64,000 bases of DNA from Ignavibacteriales bacterium (GTDB taxonomy: Bacteria; Bacteroidota; Ignavibacteria; Ignavibacteriales; SURF-24), in the NCBI GenBank assembly GCA_003599415.1, contig QZKB01000167.1, positions 1 through 64,000 on the forward strand, given 5' to 3'. Below the pieces are notes generated by a model. The model saw only the letters and a list, made by a program, of their open reading frames with translations, did no database searches and had not been told where the DNA came from. Positions 5,598-59,144 of this stretch are shown piece by piece. How positions within the stretch are numbered: the first letter of the stretch is position 1; each line of letters opens with the position of its first letter. The position numbers and the translations under genes were made by a program.

Positions 5598-6794
5598 ATG
5601 CGGCAAATTTATTTGAATATATTAATATTAAGAGATTGGCTTAAAAAGTCCCTTCCCTTGGGGAAGGTCCGCCTGCGGCGGATTAGGAATGGGCTTTTTA
5701 TTCTACCTTTACTATTTATTTTAGGGTGTGATTCTCCTGTTGATAATAATCCTGCAGAAAAATTAACTTCACTTGTAAATCTTAATGTTTACATCGCAGA
5801 TGAATCTTACAAGACATTACTTGAAAATAAAAACTTCAACCTGAACGTACCGGCAGAGATTTTTTATTCTGATAAAAGGTACACGGGAACTATCGAAGCA
5901 CAGGGTGCCGGTTCAAGATATTTTCCTAAATGGGGATTTACAATAAACCTGACAGACGGAAATACAATTGAAGGATTAACAAATTTCAATTTATCAATCC
6001 AGCAATATGATAGGGCTAAAGTAAGAACTAAACTGGCGTCCTATCTTTACAGACAACTTGGATTTTATGTTTTTAATTCTTCCGCGGCTTTTTTAAGAAT
6101 TAACGATAATAACCGTGGACTGTATCTTCTTACTGAAAGGATTGATGAAAGCTTCTTTGCTGGAAGAGGCCTTAATGTTAACGAACTTGTTAAGGTTGCC
6201 TTCGGCGCTAAATTTTCTTTTGCTGATGAAAATCACCTGAGCGATAATTTTGAAAAGAAGATTCCGGATGATAACAATTTCAACGGGCTGGCAGAATTTA
6301 TTCACGCCCTGGATACTGTTCAGGTAAAAAATATTTTTTCATTGAACAGATATTTTGATATTGAGCAGTACATGCTTTATCATGCAGTTTCAAGTATAAT
6401 GAACAATACAGACGGATTAACTAATAATTTTTATCTTTATAAAAAAAATGCACGGGAAGCATTTTCAATAATTCCCTGGGACTTCGATAAGACCTTTGAC
6501 CCAAATGCCGGTTTCGGATTGTACGGAGAGAATGATATTTCAAAGAAACTATTCCGGAGTGATTCCTGTTATGGCATGTATAAATCGCTGGTAAAAAAAG
6601 TAATTGATCATTATTTTACGGCGGAGAATCTTTTCCCTATAATAGATTCCGAATATGAAAAAATAAAGGAAGCTTATTATCTTGATCCTTACCTTGGTCT
6701 GGCCGGGATGTCTCTTGAGAATGAGATTGGAATTCTGAAAAATTTTATAACTGAAAGGAGAAAACAAGTAGAGGAAATGCTACTAAACAATTAG
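5598..6794 (+). CDS. CotH-kinase family lipoprotein
   Basis: 398 residues from the ATG at 5598, chosen because it follows the porin stop by 7 bases. The protein has a long N-terminus, then LLFILGC at residues 38-44 as a lipobox, then a CotH domain with GSRYFPKWGFTI, LLTERIDESF and IIPWDFDKTFD; the last Asp-rich motif is the metal/ATP-binding signature of the family. CotH proteins are atypical protein kinases. Bacterial copies are often exported and found near polyphosphate or surface-protein genes. Residues 16-34 (KSLPLGKVRLRRIRNG) are encoded by a dispersed palindromic cassette sitting in the signal-peptide region, adding positive charge before the hydrophobic core. Confidence 0.8.
   Translation: MRQIYLNILILRDWLKKSLPLGKVRLRRIRNGLFILPLLFILGCDSPVDNNPAEKLTSLVNLNVYIADESYKTLLENKNFNLNVPAEIFYSDKRYTGTIEAQGAGSRYFPKWGFTINLTDGNTIEGLTNFNLSIQQYDRAKVRTKLASYLYRQLGFYVFNSSAAFLRINDNNRGLYLLTERIDESFFAGRGLNVNELVKVAFGAKFSFADENHLSDNFEKKIPDDNNFNGLAEFIHALDTVQVKNIFSLNRYFDIEQYMLYHAVSSIMNNTDGLTNNFYLYKKNAREAFSIIPWDFDKTFDPNAGFGLYGENDISKKLFRSDSCYGMYKSLVKKVIDHYFTAENLFPIIDSEYEKIKEAYYLDPYLGLAGMSLENEIGILKNFITERRKQVEEMLLNN
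5644..5698 (+). repeat. Dispersed palindromic cassette inside the CotH gene
   Basis: The outer arms are AAAAG-t-CCC and GGGCTTTT. Inside are two hairpins: CCCTTCCCTTGGGGAAGG (5650-5667) and TCCGCCTGCGGCGGA (5668-5682). The same outline occurs in spacers at 12631, 12895, 13890 and 59078, so the cassette is a mobile or amplifiable repeat that here forms part of a coding region and keeps the frame. Confidence 0.75.
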
Positions 6795-12519: not shown

Positions 12520-12630
12520 AATTACCTCCGTCATTAGTTTGTTAACACAATTTTGTTTTCTATATGTTAAGACGGCAGGTTTGTATTGAGGTTTCCGAAA
12601 GTTTTGTCACGAATTGTCAAAAGATGTCAT

Positions 12631-12675
12631 AGCCCCATCCTGACCTTCCCCCAAGGGGAAGGTGGAAACTTTGTA
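12631..12675 (-). repeat. Dispersed palindromic cassette, first of three in this spacer
   Basis: Contains CCTTCCCCCAAGGGGAAGG with AGCCCCATCC on one side and GGTGGAAACTTTG on the other. Read on the minus strand it matches the CotH-embedded cassette, lacking the TCCGCC inner hairpin. The 410-base spacer 12535-12944 holds two more copies and no gene. Confidence 0.7.
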
Positions 12676-12894: not shown

Positions 12895-12942
12895 AAAAAG
12901 TCTCCCCCCTTGGGGAGGGAGATTTAGAGAGGGGCTTTTGTT
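12895..12942 (+). repeat. Dispersed palindromic cassette, TCTCCCCCC type
   Basis: Arms AAAAAGTCTCCCC and GAGGGGCTTTT bound a central CCCCCCTTGGGGAGGG hairpin and the linker AGATTTAGAGA. The copy inside the permease gene at 55153 has the same ending GAGGGGGCTTT. It ends at the 3' end of the M48 gene and could double as its terminator. Confidence 0.7.
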
Positions 12943-13888: not shown

Positions 13889-13955
13889 ATTAAAAGCCCC
13901 TTCCCTTGGGCTTGCCTGCAGCATGCAGGGAATGGGTTTGGGGATAGGTTTTATT
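13889..13955 (+). repeat. Dispersed palindromic cassette, CCTTCCCTTGGG type
   Basis: AAAAGCCCCTTCCCTTGGG, then an inner TTGCCTGCAGCATGCAGGG hairpin, then AATGGGTTTGGGGATAGG and TTTTA. Same outer arms as the CotH copy but with a different inner hairpin. It abuts the 3' end of the kelch gene. Confidence 0.7.
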
Positions 13956-15879
13956 TTACTAACAACATCTTTTTAGACGAAGAGAAATTACCGGCAGTAA
14001 TTTTATATAAATACGTACCGCTTGTTAATCCACCTGCGGCGGAGGAAGCATCAAAATCAATATTGTAAACACCTGAGTTCAATGTTTCATTTACCAATGT
14101 AACAACTTCCTGTCCAAGCAGATTATAAACTTTTAATGTAACCAAACCGCTTTCAACAATACTAAATTTTATTTTTGTTGCCGGATTAAACGGATTAGGA
14201 TAGTTCTGTTCTAATGAAAAGTCTTCTGGCAAAGCATCTACAGTTACAAAGGCTTCTCTGCTGTAAGAATAACTTCCGTCAAAATCAATCTGTTTTAAGC
14301 GATAGATATAAGAACCAGGGATGATATTTTTATCAATGAGTATATAATTCGAAAGCTGCGATGTTGTACCTTTACCCTCTATCTTTCCAACATTCAGCCA
14401 TGCGGATTCACCTTGCTGCTTTCTCTCAATAATATATTCTTTATTGTTAAGTTCTGATGCAGTTGACCATCTTAAAGTTACGTTGAAATTTTCAACTGAG
14501 GCATTGAAAGAAACCAACTCAACCGGAACAATTTCCGTAATATCGATACTCCACAAGTCATTCATTAAATAGCCGCTATTTTCAAACGAATATACACCGG
14601 CGAACACCCAGAGATTTCCAACTTTATCATTCAACATAACTGCAGAATATTTATTTGCCGGAGTGTTAAGGGAGTCCGGAACATTTTTAGTCCCGTATAC
14701 TCCTGCCGGATTTTTATTGCTGCTGCCTTTAACCCATGTCCATTGATCAGATTGAATGTTATAGAACCACAGATCATTTAAATCACCTGAAGAACCGGAA
14801 GCCGGAAATCCTGAACCGCCAAACAACCAGAGATTGTTAAATTCATCTTTGCAACCTGATGCTGACTGTCTTGATCCCGGAAAATTAGCAGAAGATGGAA
14901 TGCCTCTGGTTCCATAAATTCCATTCTGATCTCCTGTACTGCCGCCACTTACCCATGTCCATAACCCTGAAGCAACATTGTATTTCCACAGGTCACCCAG
15001 AAGTGCATAAACGCTTGCATCATAACCCCAACCGCCAAAGAGCCAAAGATTTCCATCGTTGTCTTTCCACCCAACAGCATCTTGTCTGGCTCCAGGTCTA
15101 TTATAAGTGGAAGCAATTTTTTTAGTACCATAAGAACCGCCAGGGGAAAATTGATCACCCATTATCCATGTCCAGTTTCCGGTGGCAACATCATATTTCC
15201 ATAAATCATTTAGCTGGGTTATGTTAGCGGATGAAGTATAACCATAGCCACCAAATAGCCAAAGGTTTCCTGTATCATCAATCCAGGTTGTAGAACCTGC
15301 TCTTGCACCCGGATTGTTTGCTGCATTGGCTACTCCAATTGTACCATAAACACCCGGACTGTTAGGAGTGTTACTGCCCTTTATCCATGTCCAGTTTCCG
15401 GTGTTAATATCATATTTCCAGAGATCATTATAATAAAAATCATTTCCGATCCAGGACTTTCCTCCAAACAACCAAAGATTATTTGAATTATCAATCCACA
15501 TCACCGCTTTTTCCCTGCAGGGAGGAATATTATTTGGATCAGCTATACCCAATGTACCATAAGCACCAGCCGGATTGGGTGCTTTGGTTCCATGCATCCA
15601 CGTCCAGTTTTTTGATTGCGGATTAAACTTCCATAAATCACTGGAGTAACCCCAGTTGGTTGAAATTAAACCATGGCCACCAAAAATCCAGAATTCTCCG
15701 GAATTGTCACATACAGCGGCAGGAGACTCAAGACCGGGAGGAGTGTTGGCAGCATCCTCTATTCCTTTGGTTCCAAACGTTCCGGGTGAATTACCTGTGC
15801 TTGATCCTTTTACCCATATCCAATCCTGAGCTAACATAGTGACACATAAAAAAGAAATGAAAAGTAACATTTTCTTCAT
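13951..15879 (-). CDS. T9SS-secreted kelch-type beta-propeller protein
   Basis: 642 residues with a signal peptide ending LAQ. Six consecutive repeats of about 70 residues follow, each with WTW, GxYGTxG, NLWLFGG and DLWKY positions, making a six-bladed kelch-like propeller (about residues 18-455). Next come a fibronectin-type segment beginning VPVELVSFNASV and a T9SS type A sorting domain with NYPNPFNPATKIKF and the end SSKKMLLVK. It is exported across the outer membrane and released or anchored. No catalytic residues were identified. In the sorting domain an expected DASGLTSG reads DASSAAGGLTSG, caused by a small palindromic DNA insertion. Confidence 0.85.
   Translation of the reverse strand: MKKMLLFISFLCVTMLAQDWIWVKGSSTGNSPGTFGTKGIEDAANTPPGLESPAAVCDNSGEFWIFGGHGLISTNWGYSSDLWKFNPQSKNWTWMHGTKAPNPAGAYGTLGIADPNNIPPCREKAVMWIDNSNNLWLFGGKSWIGNDFYYNDLWKYDINTGNWTWIKGSNTPNSPGVYGTIGVANAANNPGARAGSTTWIDDTGNLWLFGGYGYTSSANITQLNDLWKYDVATGNWTWIMGDQFSPGGSYGTKKIASTYNRPGARQDAVGWKDNDGNLWLFGGWGYDASVYALLGDLWKYNVASGLWTWVSGGSTGDQNGIYGTRGIPSSANFPGSRQSASGCKDEFNNLWLFGGSGFPASGSSGDLNDLWFYNIQSDQWTWVKGSSNKNPAGVYGTKNVPDSLNTPANKYSAVMLNDKVGNLWVFAGVYSFENSGYLMNDLWSIDITEIVPVELVSFNASVENFNVTLRWSTASELNNKEYIIERKQQGESAWLNVGKIEGKGTTSQLSNYILIDKNIIPGSYIYRLKQIDFDGSYSYSREAFVTVDALPEDFSLEQNYPNPFNPATKIKFSIVESGLVTLKVYNLLGQEVVTLVNETLNSGVYNIDFDASSAAGGLTSGTYLYKITAGNFSSSKKMLLVK
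14029..14043 (-). repeat. 15-bp palindromic micro-insert in the kelch sorting domain
   Basis: TCCACCTGCGGCGGA differs at one base from the inner hairpin TCCGCCTGCGGCGGA of the CotH cassette (5668-5682). On the coding strand it gives Ser-Ala-Ala-Gly-Gly at residues 613-617, within the otherwise standard FDAS-GLTSG-YLYK motif. Confidence 0.55.
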
Positions 15880-54938: not shown

Positions 54939-56318
54939 TTAGTCCGGGTTGAATTTTCTCATCAACAGAAATACGGGATATCCGGCTATAAAAATTATTA
55001 ATCCAATAAATGCTGATTCAATATTTGAAACGAAAACGCTGTAAGAAACAAATAAAAGAAATAATATGAAAATTATTGGAAGCAGCGGGAATAACGGTAA
55101 TTTGTAACCATTATATTCTTCAGTTACTCTTTCCTTATTTAGTCTCAATTGTTCTCCCCCTTGGGGGGAGCAAGAGGGGGCTTTCGTTTTTTTACGAAGC
55201 ACAAAAATTGTTGAAGCAACAAGGGCAATATTTGCAGCATCAAAAAACATAACGTAGTTAACAATCTTCTCAAACGTTCCAAGCAGGTTAATCATTAACA
55301 GAATTACAATCCCGAAAAACACCAAACCGAATTCCTGCGTTTGGGTTTTGCCGTTCACTTTACCAAAAATTTTTGGCAGTGTCTTATCCTCTGCCATTGC
55401 ATAATATGAACGGGGGACCTGCAAAAGTATTGCATTCAAAAATCCAATTGCTGACAAGAATATTGCTGCGGATATAAGCATATATCCTGAATTACCGAAA
55501 ACAATTTTTGCCACATCTGCTGCAACGAGTTTTGAACTTGCTAATGCGGAGAAACCAAGAACTTTATAATATGCAAAGTTTATAGACAGATAACACATGA
55601 TTACAATTGCTATTCCCATAAATATTGCAAGCGGAATTTTCTTCTTTGCATTTTTAACATCTTCTCCGAAGTTAATTACCATCTGATAACCACCATAAGA
55701 AAAGATTATAGAAATTAAACTAATTCCCAATGCCGAAATCAAATTAACAGAAGCGGCTGGTGGTAATATATCTGTTGTAAAAGAATTTCCTTTAACAGTA
55801 AGAGCGATCATAGCAAAAATCAAAATCATAAAAATCTTTAGCATTGATAAAATATTTTGTGCCCATGCACCTGTTTTAATGCCAAGATAATTGATGAGAA
55901 GAAGAAATATTACAACTCCTGAAGCAGTTAACTGAATAACAATTGGAGTAATTGCCTCTTTAGGCATGAATAATGGCAGAATATATTCGGCTCCTATCAT
56001 TGCAACTCCGGCTCCGCTTGCAGGATTGACAAGCATAACATTAGTCCAGTTAAACATAAAAGCAATATCAGAACGGTAACAATGTGCAACTACCAGGTAG
56101 AAGCCTCCCGCCGAAGGAAAACGTGAACCAATCTCTGCAAAAGTTAGTGCTCCAAACAAACTTATAATTCCGCCAAGAATCCATGCAGTAAAAAATAATT
56201 CAACGGATTGTGTTGAAGATGCAACCATTGATGGAGTGCGGAAAATCCCGATTCCGATTACAAGGCTGACCACAATCATTGTGGTATCAAATGTTGAAAG
56301 CTTAGGTTTGATTGACAT
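54939..56318 (-). CDS. APC-family amino-acid permease, copy 1
   Basis: 459 residues, twelve helices. Opening MIVVSLVIGIGIFRTPS is the APC helix-1 motif with the unwound GIG. It is a likely amino-acid transporter or exchanger. Between helices 10 and 11 an extra cytosolic stretch APSCSPQGGEQLRLN (about 378-390) appears that the neighbouring paralogue lacks; its DNA is a dispersed palindromic cassette. The start follows the previous stop by 15 bases. It is last in a run of four genes for peptide and amino-acid use. Confidence 0.9.
   Translation of the reverse strand: MSIKPKLSTFDTTMIVVSLVIGIGIFRTPSMVASSTQSVELFFTAWILGGIISLFGALTFAEIGSRFPSAGGFYLVVAHCYRSDIAFMFNWTNVMLVNPASGAGVAMIGAEYILPLFMPKEAITPIVIQLTASGVVIFLLLINYLGIKTGAWAQNILSMLKIFMILIFAMIALTVKGNSFTTDILPPAASVNLISALGISLISIIFSYGGYQMVINFGEDVKNAKKKIPLAIFMGIAIVIMCYLSINFAYYKVLGFSALASSKLVAADVAKIVFGNSGYMLISAAIFLSAIGFLNAILLQVPRSYYAMAEDKTLPKIFGKVNGKTQTQEFGLVFFGIVILLMINLLGTFEKIVNYVMFFDAANIALVASTIFVLRKKTKAPSCSPQGGEQLRLNKERVTEEYNGYKLPLFPLLPIIFILFLLFVSYSVFVSNIESAFIGLIIFIAGYPVFLLMRKFNPD
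55153..55184 (-). repeat. Palindromic cassette inside the APC permease gene
   Basis: TCTCCCCCTTGGGGGGA then GCAAGAGGGGGCTTT, matching the TCTCCCCCC-type spacer copy at 12895. It gives the extra loop Ala-Pro-Ser-Cys-Ser-Pro-Gln-Gly-Gly-Glu. Frame is kept. Confidence 0.75.
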
Positions 56319-56333
56319 GAATTTACATCATCA

Positions 56334-57809
56334 TTAAGTTGAAAATTTTTTCCAGAGAGAATAAACCGGTATTCCCATTAAGACAATTATCATTCCCGGC
56401 CAGGTATAAGTTGGTTTAAAGATTAAAAGATCAATACAAATTGCAAGTGCAATAGCAAGATAAATTATCGGAACAACAGGATAACCAAAAGTTTTATACG
56501 AACGTTCTGCATCCGGTCTCTTTTTACGAAGTATGAATATGCCTGCGATTGTAAGGATGTAAAAAATCAAAACTGCAAACACAACATAATCGAGCAGATC
56601 CCCGTAGGTGCCGGATAAACATAATAAGCTTGCCCAGACTGCCTGAAGAATAAGTGCAGTACCTGGAACAGAATGCCTGTTAAGCGTACCGACTTTCTTA
56701 AAGAAAAGTTTATCCTTAGACATTGCGAAAAACACTCTTGCACCGGAAAGCACCAGTCCGTTGTTGCATCCGAACGTAGAGATCATAATAAGTACGGCCA
56801 TAAATGCTGCTGCGGATACACCGAACATTTCTGCTGCCGCTGCAACACCAACTCTGTCGCTTACAGCAAACTGAATTCCGCGGGCAATTTCTGTTGCTCC
56901 TTCCGGCATTCCTCTAACAGGCAGTATAAGCACATAAACAACATTTGCAAGAATGTAAAGTATAGTTACAGTTCCTGTTCCTATAATTAAACTAAGAGGA
57001 ATGTTCCGTTTGGGATTAACAACTTCGCCGGCAATAAAAGTAATACTCTCAAATGCTATGGAAGAAAATAATGAACCAACCATTGCTACTCCGATAGCGG
57101 CAATTATCATGGAACCGGAAAGATTTTTTATGGAAAGTATTTGCCCGTTTTCAATTGTAGTCCACGTACCTTCGCAGAAATAACGTAGGTTTGCTGAAAT
57201 TGATTCAGCATTTCTTCCGATTAAGATACCAAGAAGTATTAATCCAATTAAGGCAAGTGTTTTTGTGATTGTAAAAATGTTCTGTGTTAACTTACCACTT
57301 CTTATACCTATTAGATTTATATAAGTAAGAATAATTATGCTTCCAATAGCCAGCATTTGCGCGGCAGAGATATTCAACCCTGCAATGGATAACAGAATAT
57401 TTTTTTCACTGAACCAGGGAATAAGAACAGAGGTAAATTTTGCAAATGCAACTGCCACCGCGGCAATTGTTCCTGTTTGTATAACAAGGAACATTGTCCA
57501 TCCGTATAGAAATCCAATTAACGGGTTATAAGCTTCTCTTAAGTAAACATATTGCCCGCCGGCATTAGGCATCATTCCTGCCAGCTCTCCATAGCTTAGC
57601 GCAGCAGTAACTGTAACAAGTCCTGTAATAACCCAAACCAGAATTAAATAACCGGGTGATCCCACCGTTCTTGCAATATCTGCACTGACAATAAAGATTC
57701 CTGAGCCGATCATCGAGCCTACGACAATCATTGTTGAATCGAAAAGTTTTAATTCTTTTTTAAAGGAAGGAGGATCTGACTTTGTGCTAATGAATTTCTG
57801 TCCGTCCAT
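56334..57809 (-). CDS. APC-family amino-acid permease, copy 2
   Basis: 491 residues, twelve to thirteen helices, with the same helix-1 motif (MIVVGSMIGSGIFIVSADI). Its loop between helices 10 and 11 reads FILRKKRPDAERSYKTFGYP, the normal length for the family and without the palindromic insert. It probably carries amino acids with proton symport or exchange. It lies between the aminotransferase and the first permease, spaced by 58 and 15 bases. Confidence 0.92.
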   Translation of the reverse strand: MDGQKFISTKSDPPSFKKELKLFDSTMIVVGSMIGSGIFIVSADIARTVGSPGYLILVWVITGLVTVTAALSYGELAGMMPNAGGQYVYLREAYNPLIGFLYGWTMFLVIQTGTIAAVAVAFAKFTSVLIPWFSEKNILLSIAGLNISAAQMLAIGSIIILTYINLIGIRSGKLTQNIFTITKTLALIGLILLGILIGRNAESISANLRYFCEGTWTTIENGQILSIKNLSGSMIIAAIGVAMVGSLFSSIAFESITFIAGEVVNPKRNIPLSLIIGTGTVTILYILANVVYVLILPVRGMPEGATEIARGIQFAVSDRVGVAAAAEMFGVSAAAFMAVLIMISTFGCNNGLVLSGARVFFAMSKDKLFFKKVGTLNRHSVPGTALILQAVWASLLCLSGTYGDLLDYVVFAVLIFYILTIAGIFILRKKRPDAERSYKTFGYPVVPIIYLAIALAICIDLLIFKPTYTWPGMIIVLMGIPVYSLWKKFST

Positions 57810-59077: not shown

Positions 59078-59140
59078 AAAGTTCCCTTCCTTTGGAAGGG
59101 GATAATCCCAAAGGGATGCCTTCGGCAAGGGGTAGGCTTT
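59078..59140 (+). repeat. Nested palindromic cassette between peptidase and aminotransferase genes
   Basis: AAAAGTTCCCTTCC opens the element; inside are CCTTCCTTTGGAAGG, ATCCCAAAGGGAT and GCCTTCGGC as three separate hairpins; it closes with AAGGGGTAGGCTTTTT. The outer arms match the CotH copy, but the inner hairpins differ, showing that modules can be exchanged. Confidence 0.75.
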
Positions 59141-59144
59141 TTAT

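Follow-up and report, generated by a model that had tools for sequence, protein, structure and literature searches.

The locus lies in a stretch of 64,000 nucleotides, hereafter the window, and holds two neighbouring amino-acid permease genes. The host gene (54939–56318, minus strand) encodes a 459-residue APC-type transporter, recognised by its match to PF13520 (Pfam E = 1.2e-49) and with orthologues at 40–49% identity. Within it, an extra stretch of about 19 codons, APSCSPQGGEQLRLNKERV, forms residues 380–398 of a loop (55125–55181, minus strand; ends approximate, from the alignment with 81 relatives). This stretch overlaps a solo repeat element, ATTGTTCTCCCCCTTGGGGGGAGCAAGAGGGGGCTTTC, at 55148–55185 on the plus strand, opposite to the permease gene, and the in-frame peptide that the element encodes is TKAPSCSPQGGEQL. 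On the permease coding strand, CTTCGTAAAAAAACGAAAGCCCCCTCTTGCTCCCCCCAAGGGGGAGAACAATTG is read as LRKKTKAPSCSPQGGEQL with the frame unbroken. At about 57 nucleotides, the extra loop stretch is longer than the conserved 38-nucleotide unit of the repeat.

An earlier note on this DNA had proposed an insertion into a coding gene at 55153–55184, citing a tandem paralogue with a normal loop. The neighbouring permease (56334–57809, minus strand; open reading frame, Pfam and alignment) does have a short loop, FILRKKRPDAERSYKTFGYP, but it is only 25% identical to the host permease and is by itself weak evidence for insertion; outgroups were therefore tested. Counted between the alignment marks chosen, the loop spans 55 residues in the window permease versus 34–40 in 81 relatives (52 from a scan of genome contigs and about 30 from a search of 59 genomes), with one exception of 48. 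An ancestral long loop was not found in this alignment, and the outgroup loop lengths support the proposed insertion. In an AlphaFold2 model (22 sequences, pLDDT 84.8), the insert, at residues 381–399, has a pLDDT below 50, and this disordered segment falls between two late transmembrane helices, 349–379 and 412–431. No empty site for the permease insert was found; the window genome is the sole member of its genus among the genomes examined. The 48-residue exception, a permease from a Chryseobacterium MAG (L069, 5107–5196), carries a different repeat-like insert in the same loop, GCTTCGACAAGCTCAG, which reads as ALRQAQPP and is unrelated to the window element.

A repeat family with a mirrored third arm

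The element is built from three arms on the plus strand. A pyrimidine arm, CTCCCCC (55154–55160), is followed by its reverse complement, the purine arm GGGGGAG (55164–55170), evident in both sequence and fold, and then by a third arm, GAGGGGG (55174–55180), which is an exact mirror of the purine arm, with 7/7 mirror-arm positions in our triplex finder. The earlier description of the unit as a palindrome holds for the two complementary arms but is incomplete, as the last G-rich block is the mirror and not the complement of the purine arm, as in GGAGAGGG then GGGAGAGG, or GGGGGAG then GAGGGGG. The element matches the whole of a covariance model of the family, R1 (46.9 bits, E = 2.0e-9, with this copy in the training set). 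In the genome (5.03 Mb, 88.5% complete), R1 finds about 38 copies at E < 0.01, of which the window copy, itself used in training, is second best, and about 50 copies in all; read in context, the copies give a family consensus near AAAAGCCCTTCCCTTTGGGAAGGGTTTGGGATGGGCTTTT. The arms co-vary: over 43 copies of the window genome, the third arm matches the mirror of the purine arm at 0.896, against 0.752 ± 0.014 when third arms are reassigned among the copies (2000 shuffles, maximum 0.795). The leftover mismatches are often T opposite A, which is permitted in the purine triplex motif. Folded as a simple DNA hairpin, the element has an unremarkable energy (z −1.05; RNA z −2.23) because the third arm lies outside the fold model, and Rfam gives no family match at the permease region.

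Within the window, CCCCCTTGGGGG occurs three times with at most one mismatch, against 0.10 expected. Further copies of the element lie at 12628–12667 (minus strand, E = 1.4e-8) and 12897–12939 (plus strand, E = 6.2e-9), each identified by both the covariance model and the triplex finder, and at 5645–5698 (plus strand, covariance model E = 4.5e-4), where a second small hairpin, TCCGCCTGCGGCGGA, sits between the purine arm and the third arm. A probable diverged copy at 59084–59144 (plus strand), absent from the covariance model list, was picked up by a hairpin scan and has extra hairpins in its spacer. Second hairpins of the TCCGCCTGCGGCGGA type at this position are thus seen in both of these copies, at window positions 13890–13960 and at two further loci (L125, L140); such a second hairpin resembles an element nested within the copy.

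Intrastrand triplex motifs of bacteria, the PIT elements, were reportedly treated by Hoyne in 2000. A class II intrastrand triplex has, all on the same strand, a pyrimidine arm, a purine arm and a further purine arm that mirrors the preceding one (Holder 2015, PMC4666352), PIT and BoxC being earlier names, with the E. coli consensus CCCTCNCCCN3-6GGGNGAGGGN3GGGNGAGGG (PMC4666352). Judged by its letters, the window repeat is a motif of this class (PIT/BoxC/TM), and a triplex fold is predicted for it: it has the pyrimidine arm, the complementary purine arm and the mirrored purine arm with a stem of at least 6 (7/7 triads), its loops, TTG and CAA, fall within the range of 1–6 nucleotides, and it combines high copy number with co-varying arms. 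Oligonucleotides of the E. coli elements (TMECO) form a stable triplex in vitro, whereas in vivo footprinting in E. coli did not show one (PMC4666352). The E. coli sites are reported as strictly intergenic, with neither an enzyme nor a mobile element linked to them (PMC4666352). The window copy departs from this trait in lying inside the permease frame; 'always intergenic' is what has been reported for the E. coli TMECO set and stands outside the structural definition of the class.

Other genic copies, which the earlier note had suggested looking for, do occur. In-frame members of the R1 family are found in two T9SS C-terminal sorting domains, in two other secreted proteins and, twice, in MetH, and a pattern search adds eight T9SS sorting-domain copies of sister subtypes, all in one common loop between IKYTIP and LKVYDILG. 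As for the frame preference that the note had raised, 15 genic copies use five of the six combinations of orientation and phase, and a fixed coding frame was rejected on this count. With five frames in use, no single reading constrains the translated peptide, which is itself probably not under selection, and tolerance of the insertion site is the simplest explanation for the genic copies. Family copies have on average 4.8 of 6 frames open versus 4.3 in composition-matched shuffles, a margin so slight that we do not claim special stop avoidance. In-frame peptides such as LPLGEGLGEA or PSPYKGEG, an oddity of bacterial proteins, are explained in this way as translated triplex DNA.

The T9SS sorting-domain loop is a hotspot, with at least three element subtypes at ten loci. 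Some of these copies probably share one junction through duplication of paralogues, but for one loop to hold three subtypes, elements must have arrived there at least three times. The window genome also contains solo copies that belong to other cognate subtypes.

DUF559 genes and triplex elements in at least five phyla

Pfam still lists DUF559, a large family, under 'unknown function'. The two MetH copies flank an inserted DUF559 domain (PF04480), and this enzyme lead was followed with a triplex finder that was applied unchanged. In the window genome, a triplex-type element lies near all six DUF559 matches, one of them a fragment. Across the order, 64 of 74 DUF559 loci, from 42 genomes, have an element within 250 bp, 40 of them on both sides, and 10 have no detectable element; these loci were taken down the score ranking, and repeats played no part in their choice. 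Element density there is 3.94 per kb within 250 bp of DUF559 versus 0.12 per kb beyond 500 bp. A second genome set (Bacteroidia, others and one Syntrophaceae) gives 23 of 27 loci with an element and four without. Among ten named records, which bring in three further phyla, eight have an element within 250 bp of DUF559 (N. gonorrhoeae, Synechocystis, Picosynechococcus PCC 7003, Pseudanabaena, Deinococcus, Sphingomonas and two Azospirillum), and the finder returned none within that distance in the other two, Picosynechococcus PCC 7002 and Sinorhizobium. Densities in the named records are 4.2 per kb near DUF559, 0.25 far from it and 0.006 in Markov shuffles; unrelated loci have 0.008–0.010 per kb. 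The association of DUF559 with triplex elements thus spans at least five phyla. Over 96 genomes, R1 copy number follows DUF559 number with a Spearman coefficient of 0.55, a figure that ignores phylogeny and counts the flanking copies in (mean 4.5 copies with DUF559, 0.47 without), and 8 of the 38 genomes without DUF559 still hold a few R1 copies.

E. coli K-12 itself shows the pairing: 168 bp separate the end of its DUF559 gene, ycjD, from TMECO no. 9 in the published list, a proximity with a chance of about 0.4% by our own arithmetic (18 sites in 4.64 Mb). In the literature searched, which takes in few of the subscription journals, we found no prior report linking DUF559 or YcjD with triplex repeats. 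The association is an apparent new point, the triplex motif class itself being already published, and it ties triplex repeats to DUF559, so that both can be put to the test in E. coli K-12 (ycjD, TMECO no. 9). ycjD is present or absent between E. coli strains (PMC12817139). At adk–hemH, 2912 of 5395 E. coli genomes have a match over 80% or more of the query, copy included; the site is polymorphic, without a clean insertion. Between pstB and pstA, a 92-bp stretch with a TMECO is present in some E. coli strains and absent from others (L331 versus L332 and L333), bounded by a 7-bp direct repeat, AACCGTG. This pattern, observed at one site, fits an insertion with target duplication and could also be a deletion by microhomology.

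DUF559 domains with their elements are embedded in frame inside MetH, HsdR, the LeuRS editing region, MiaB, an AddB-like nuclease and a DNA methylase (MiaB, LeuRS, HsdR and a PDDEXK_1 protein identified by Pfam, MetH and the methylase by sequence). The host gene largely matches the DUF559 clade, as with homing endonucleases. In LeuRS, DUF559 and elements lie in frame beside the editing domain at six loci, from Bacteroidia and one other genome. The MetH insert of the window genome (contig C2, 119768–120257) is an in-frame DUF559 (119825–120145) between two inverted triplex elements of the R1 family, at 119768 and 120216. Of the 59 genomes searched, 47 have an uninterrupted MetH linker and 11 an insert or relic in it, two of the latter (G025 and G006) with short element-like remnants only; relatives thus carry both interrupted and uninterrupted alleles, in a linker too variable for an exact junction. 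As the only DUF559 of this genome whose flanks exceed 20 bits in the R1 family, the MetH-embedded domain is the candidate enzyme for the window copy, which has the same subtype as these flanks in the same genome, and it is the likeliest partner of the window family there.

Grouping the elements on their 3′ ends gives six types, and type follows the nuclease. Elements on the two sides of one DUF559 gene are of the same type in 38 of 49 cases, versus 13.4 expected (5000 shuffles, maximum 24). On a DUF559 tree built from few columns and with many unresolved forks, the types need 18 changes versus at least 39 in 300 shuffles, and for stand-alone DUF559 genes 14 versus at least 27. Different DUF559 genes of one genome have different element types (G076, for example), and the subtype matching is therefore more than genome relatedness. 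In the DUF559 domain, D, E, D and H are near-invariant, nuclease-type acidic and histidine residues; its PDB matches are 3HRL (6e-20) and, weakly, the mobile-intron protein 3R3P (0.0027). YcjD has already been assigned to the PD-(D/E)XK superfamily (PMC1189080).

How the repeats may spread

A DUF559 nuclease probably spread the permease insert as a non-autonomous solo copy, which was tolerated because it landed in frame in a loop; its insertion and the association of its family with DUF559 are observed, and mobilisation is the step that we infer from them. The nuclease, with a Vsr-like PD-(D/E)XK fold, would bind the folded single strand of an element, probably exposed during replication, and would cut at or near it, a copy of the element then being pasted elsewhere, in trans. 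Elements without a DUF559 gene would be its non-autonomous copies. Solo copies landing in a loop with the frame kept would survive, most others being intergenic, and the permease copy would have landed in frame between the helices of residues 349–379 and 412–431, in a loop that tolerates extra residues. We lean, if less firmly, towards the general form of this reading: in five or more phyla, the intrastrand-triplex repeats of bacteria would owe their mobility to DUF559 proteins, in an arrangement like the REPtron but with an unrelated nuclease, and could enter essential proteins (MetH, LeuRS, MiaB) in frame, alone or together with the nuclease gene. The place of the repeats beside DUF559 genes makes this uncharacterised nuclease family the first candidate for an enzyme that moves triplex repeats.

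The strongest competitor, though still an unlikely one, makes DUF559 a guest that homes into existing triplex repeats, or into genes while carrying repeats along as recognition sites, the repeats themselves spreading otherwise, for example by replication slippage or recombination. Homing-endonuclease-like behaviour is suggested by the embedding in six protein types with host gene and clade largely in step, and by a MetH that is uninterrupted in most relatives. However, the two flanks share a subtype and the subtype follows the enzyme even within one genome, which makes random invasion improbable unless the enzyme chooses the subtype.

A reading in which RAYT (TnpA-REP, HUH tyrosine transposases) moves the elements as REP sequences, with the insert as an ordinary intragenic REP, is very unlikely. 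The window genome does have four Y1_Tnp genes, and REP insertions into coding genes with the frame kept are published (PMC3733652, PMC6006769). Yet the four RAYT loci, 13 kb in all, contain no triplex element and have hairpins of other kinds on their flanks, the triplex elements go with DUF559, and the GTAG/GTGG (or CGTC) foot of REP is replaced by TTGTT and CAAGA beside the hairpin at 55154, which vary in the family. The four RAYT-like loci have their own, different hairpins, such as CTGTCAAGG...CCTTGACAG around one of them (L012).

We give scarcely any weight to the idea that the elements are GC-rich hairpins acting as bidirectional transcription terminators or mRNA-stability elements that lie in genes by chance. 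Many copies are intergenic near gene ends and have AAAAG...CTTTT ends, as this idea would have it, but at least 15 lie inside long open frames, the mirrored third arm is needless for termination, and E. coli PIT elements are reported to lack terminator activity (PMC4666352). Least credible of all is an ancestral long loop, a chance low-complexity expansion or a MAG assembly error, the estimated contamination of 7.3% notwithstanding, given 81 relatives without the insert, an intact frame and an element family with about 50 copies in the genome and others in relatives.

Spread by a DUF559 nuclease, our preferred reading, can be set against four known systems. The present family shares with PIT/BoxC/TM the three-arm Y-R-R plan, GC-rich class II (purine motif) triads, short loops, tens of copies per genome and inverted pairs, and the TMECO consensus has the same architecture; TMECO differs in being reported as always intergenic and as having no link to mobile elements, whereas the present family has in-frame genic copies and a tie to DUF559. 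Rickettsia palindromic elements (RPE) likewise are palindromic repeats in frame in protein genes, at residue-tolerant sites, and the window family resembles them in its in-frame insertion within protein genes; to our knowledge they differ in sequence and structure, and we know of no DUF559 link. EDxHD or Vsr-like homing endonucleases (3R3P) have a distant sequence relation to DUF559 and share insertion in conserved genes and matching of clade to site, but 3R3P is annotated from a mobile intron, whereas the DUF559 inserts that we read have no intron or intein module and keep the protein frame. REP/REPIN sequences with RAYT (the REPtron) also consist of short, multi-copy, non-autonomous palindromes that flank a presumed enzyme gene, with matching of enzyme and repeat subtype and with in-frame genic copies tolerated in loops. 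Their enzyme is an HUH tyrosine transposase, whereas the candidate here is a PD-(D/E)XK Vsr-like domain, and the present family lacks the GTAG foot and has a third, mirrored arm. If mobilisation by DUF559 is true, these repeats and their dedicated nuclease would form a system like REP/RAYT that acts on triplex-forming single-stranded DNA.
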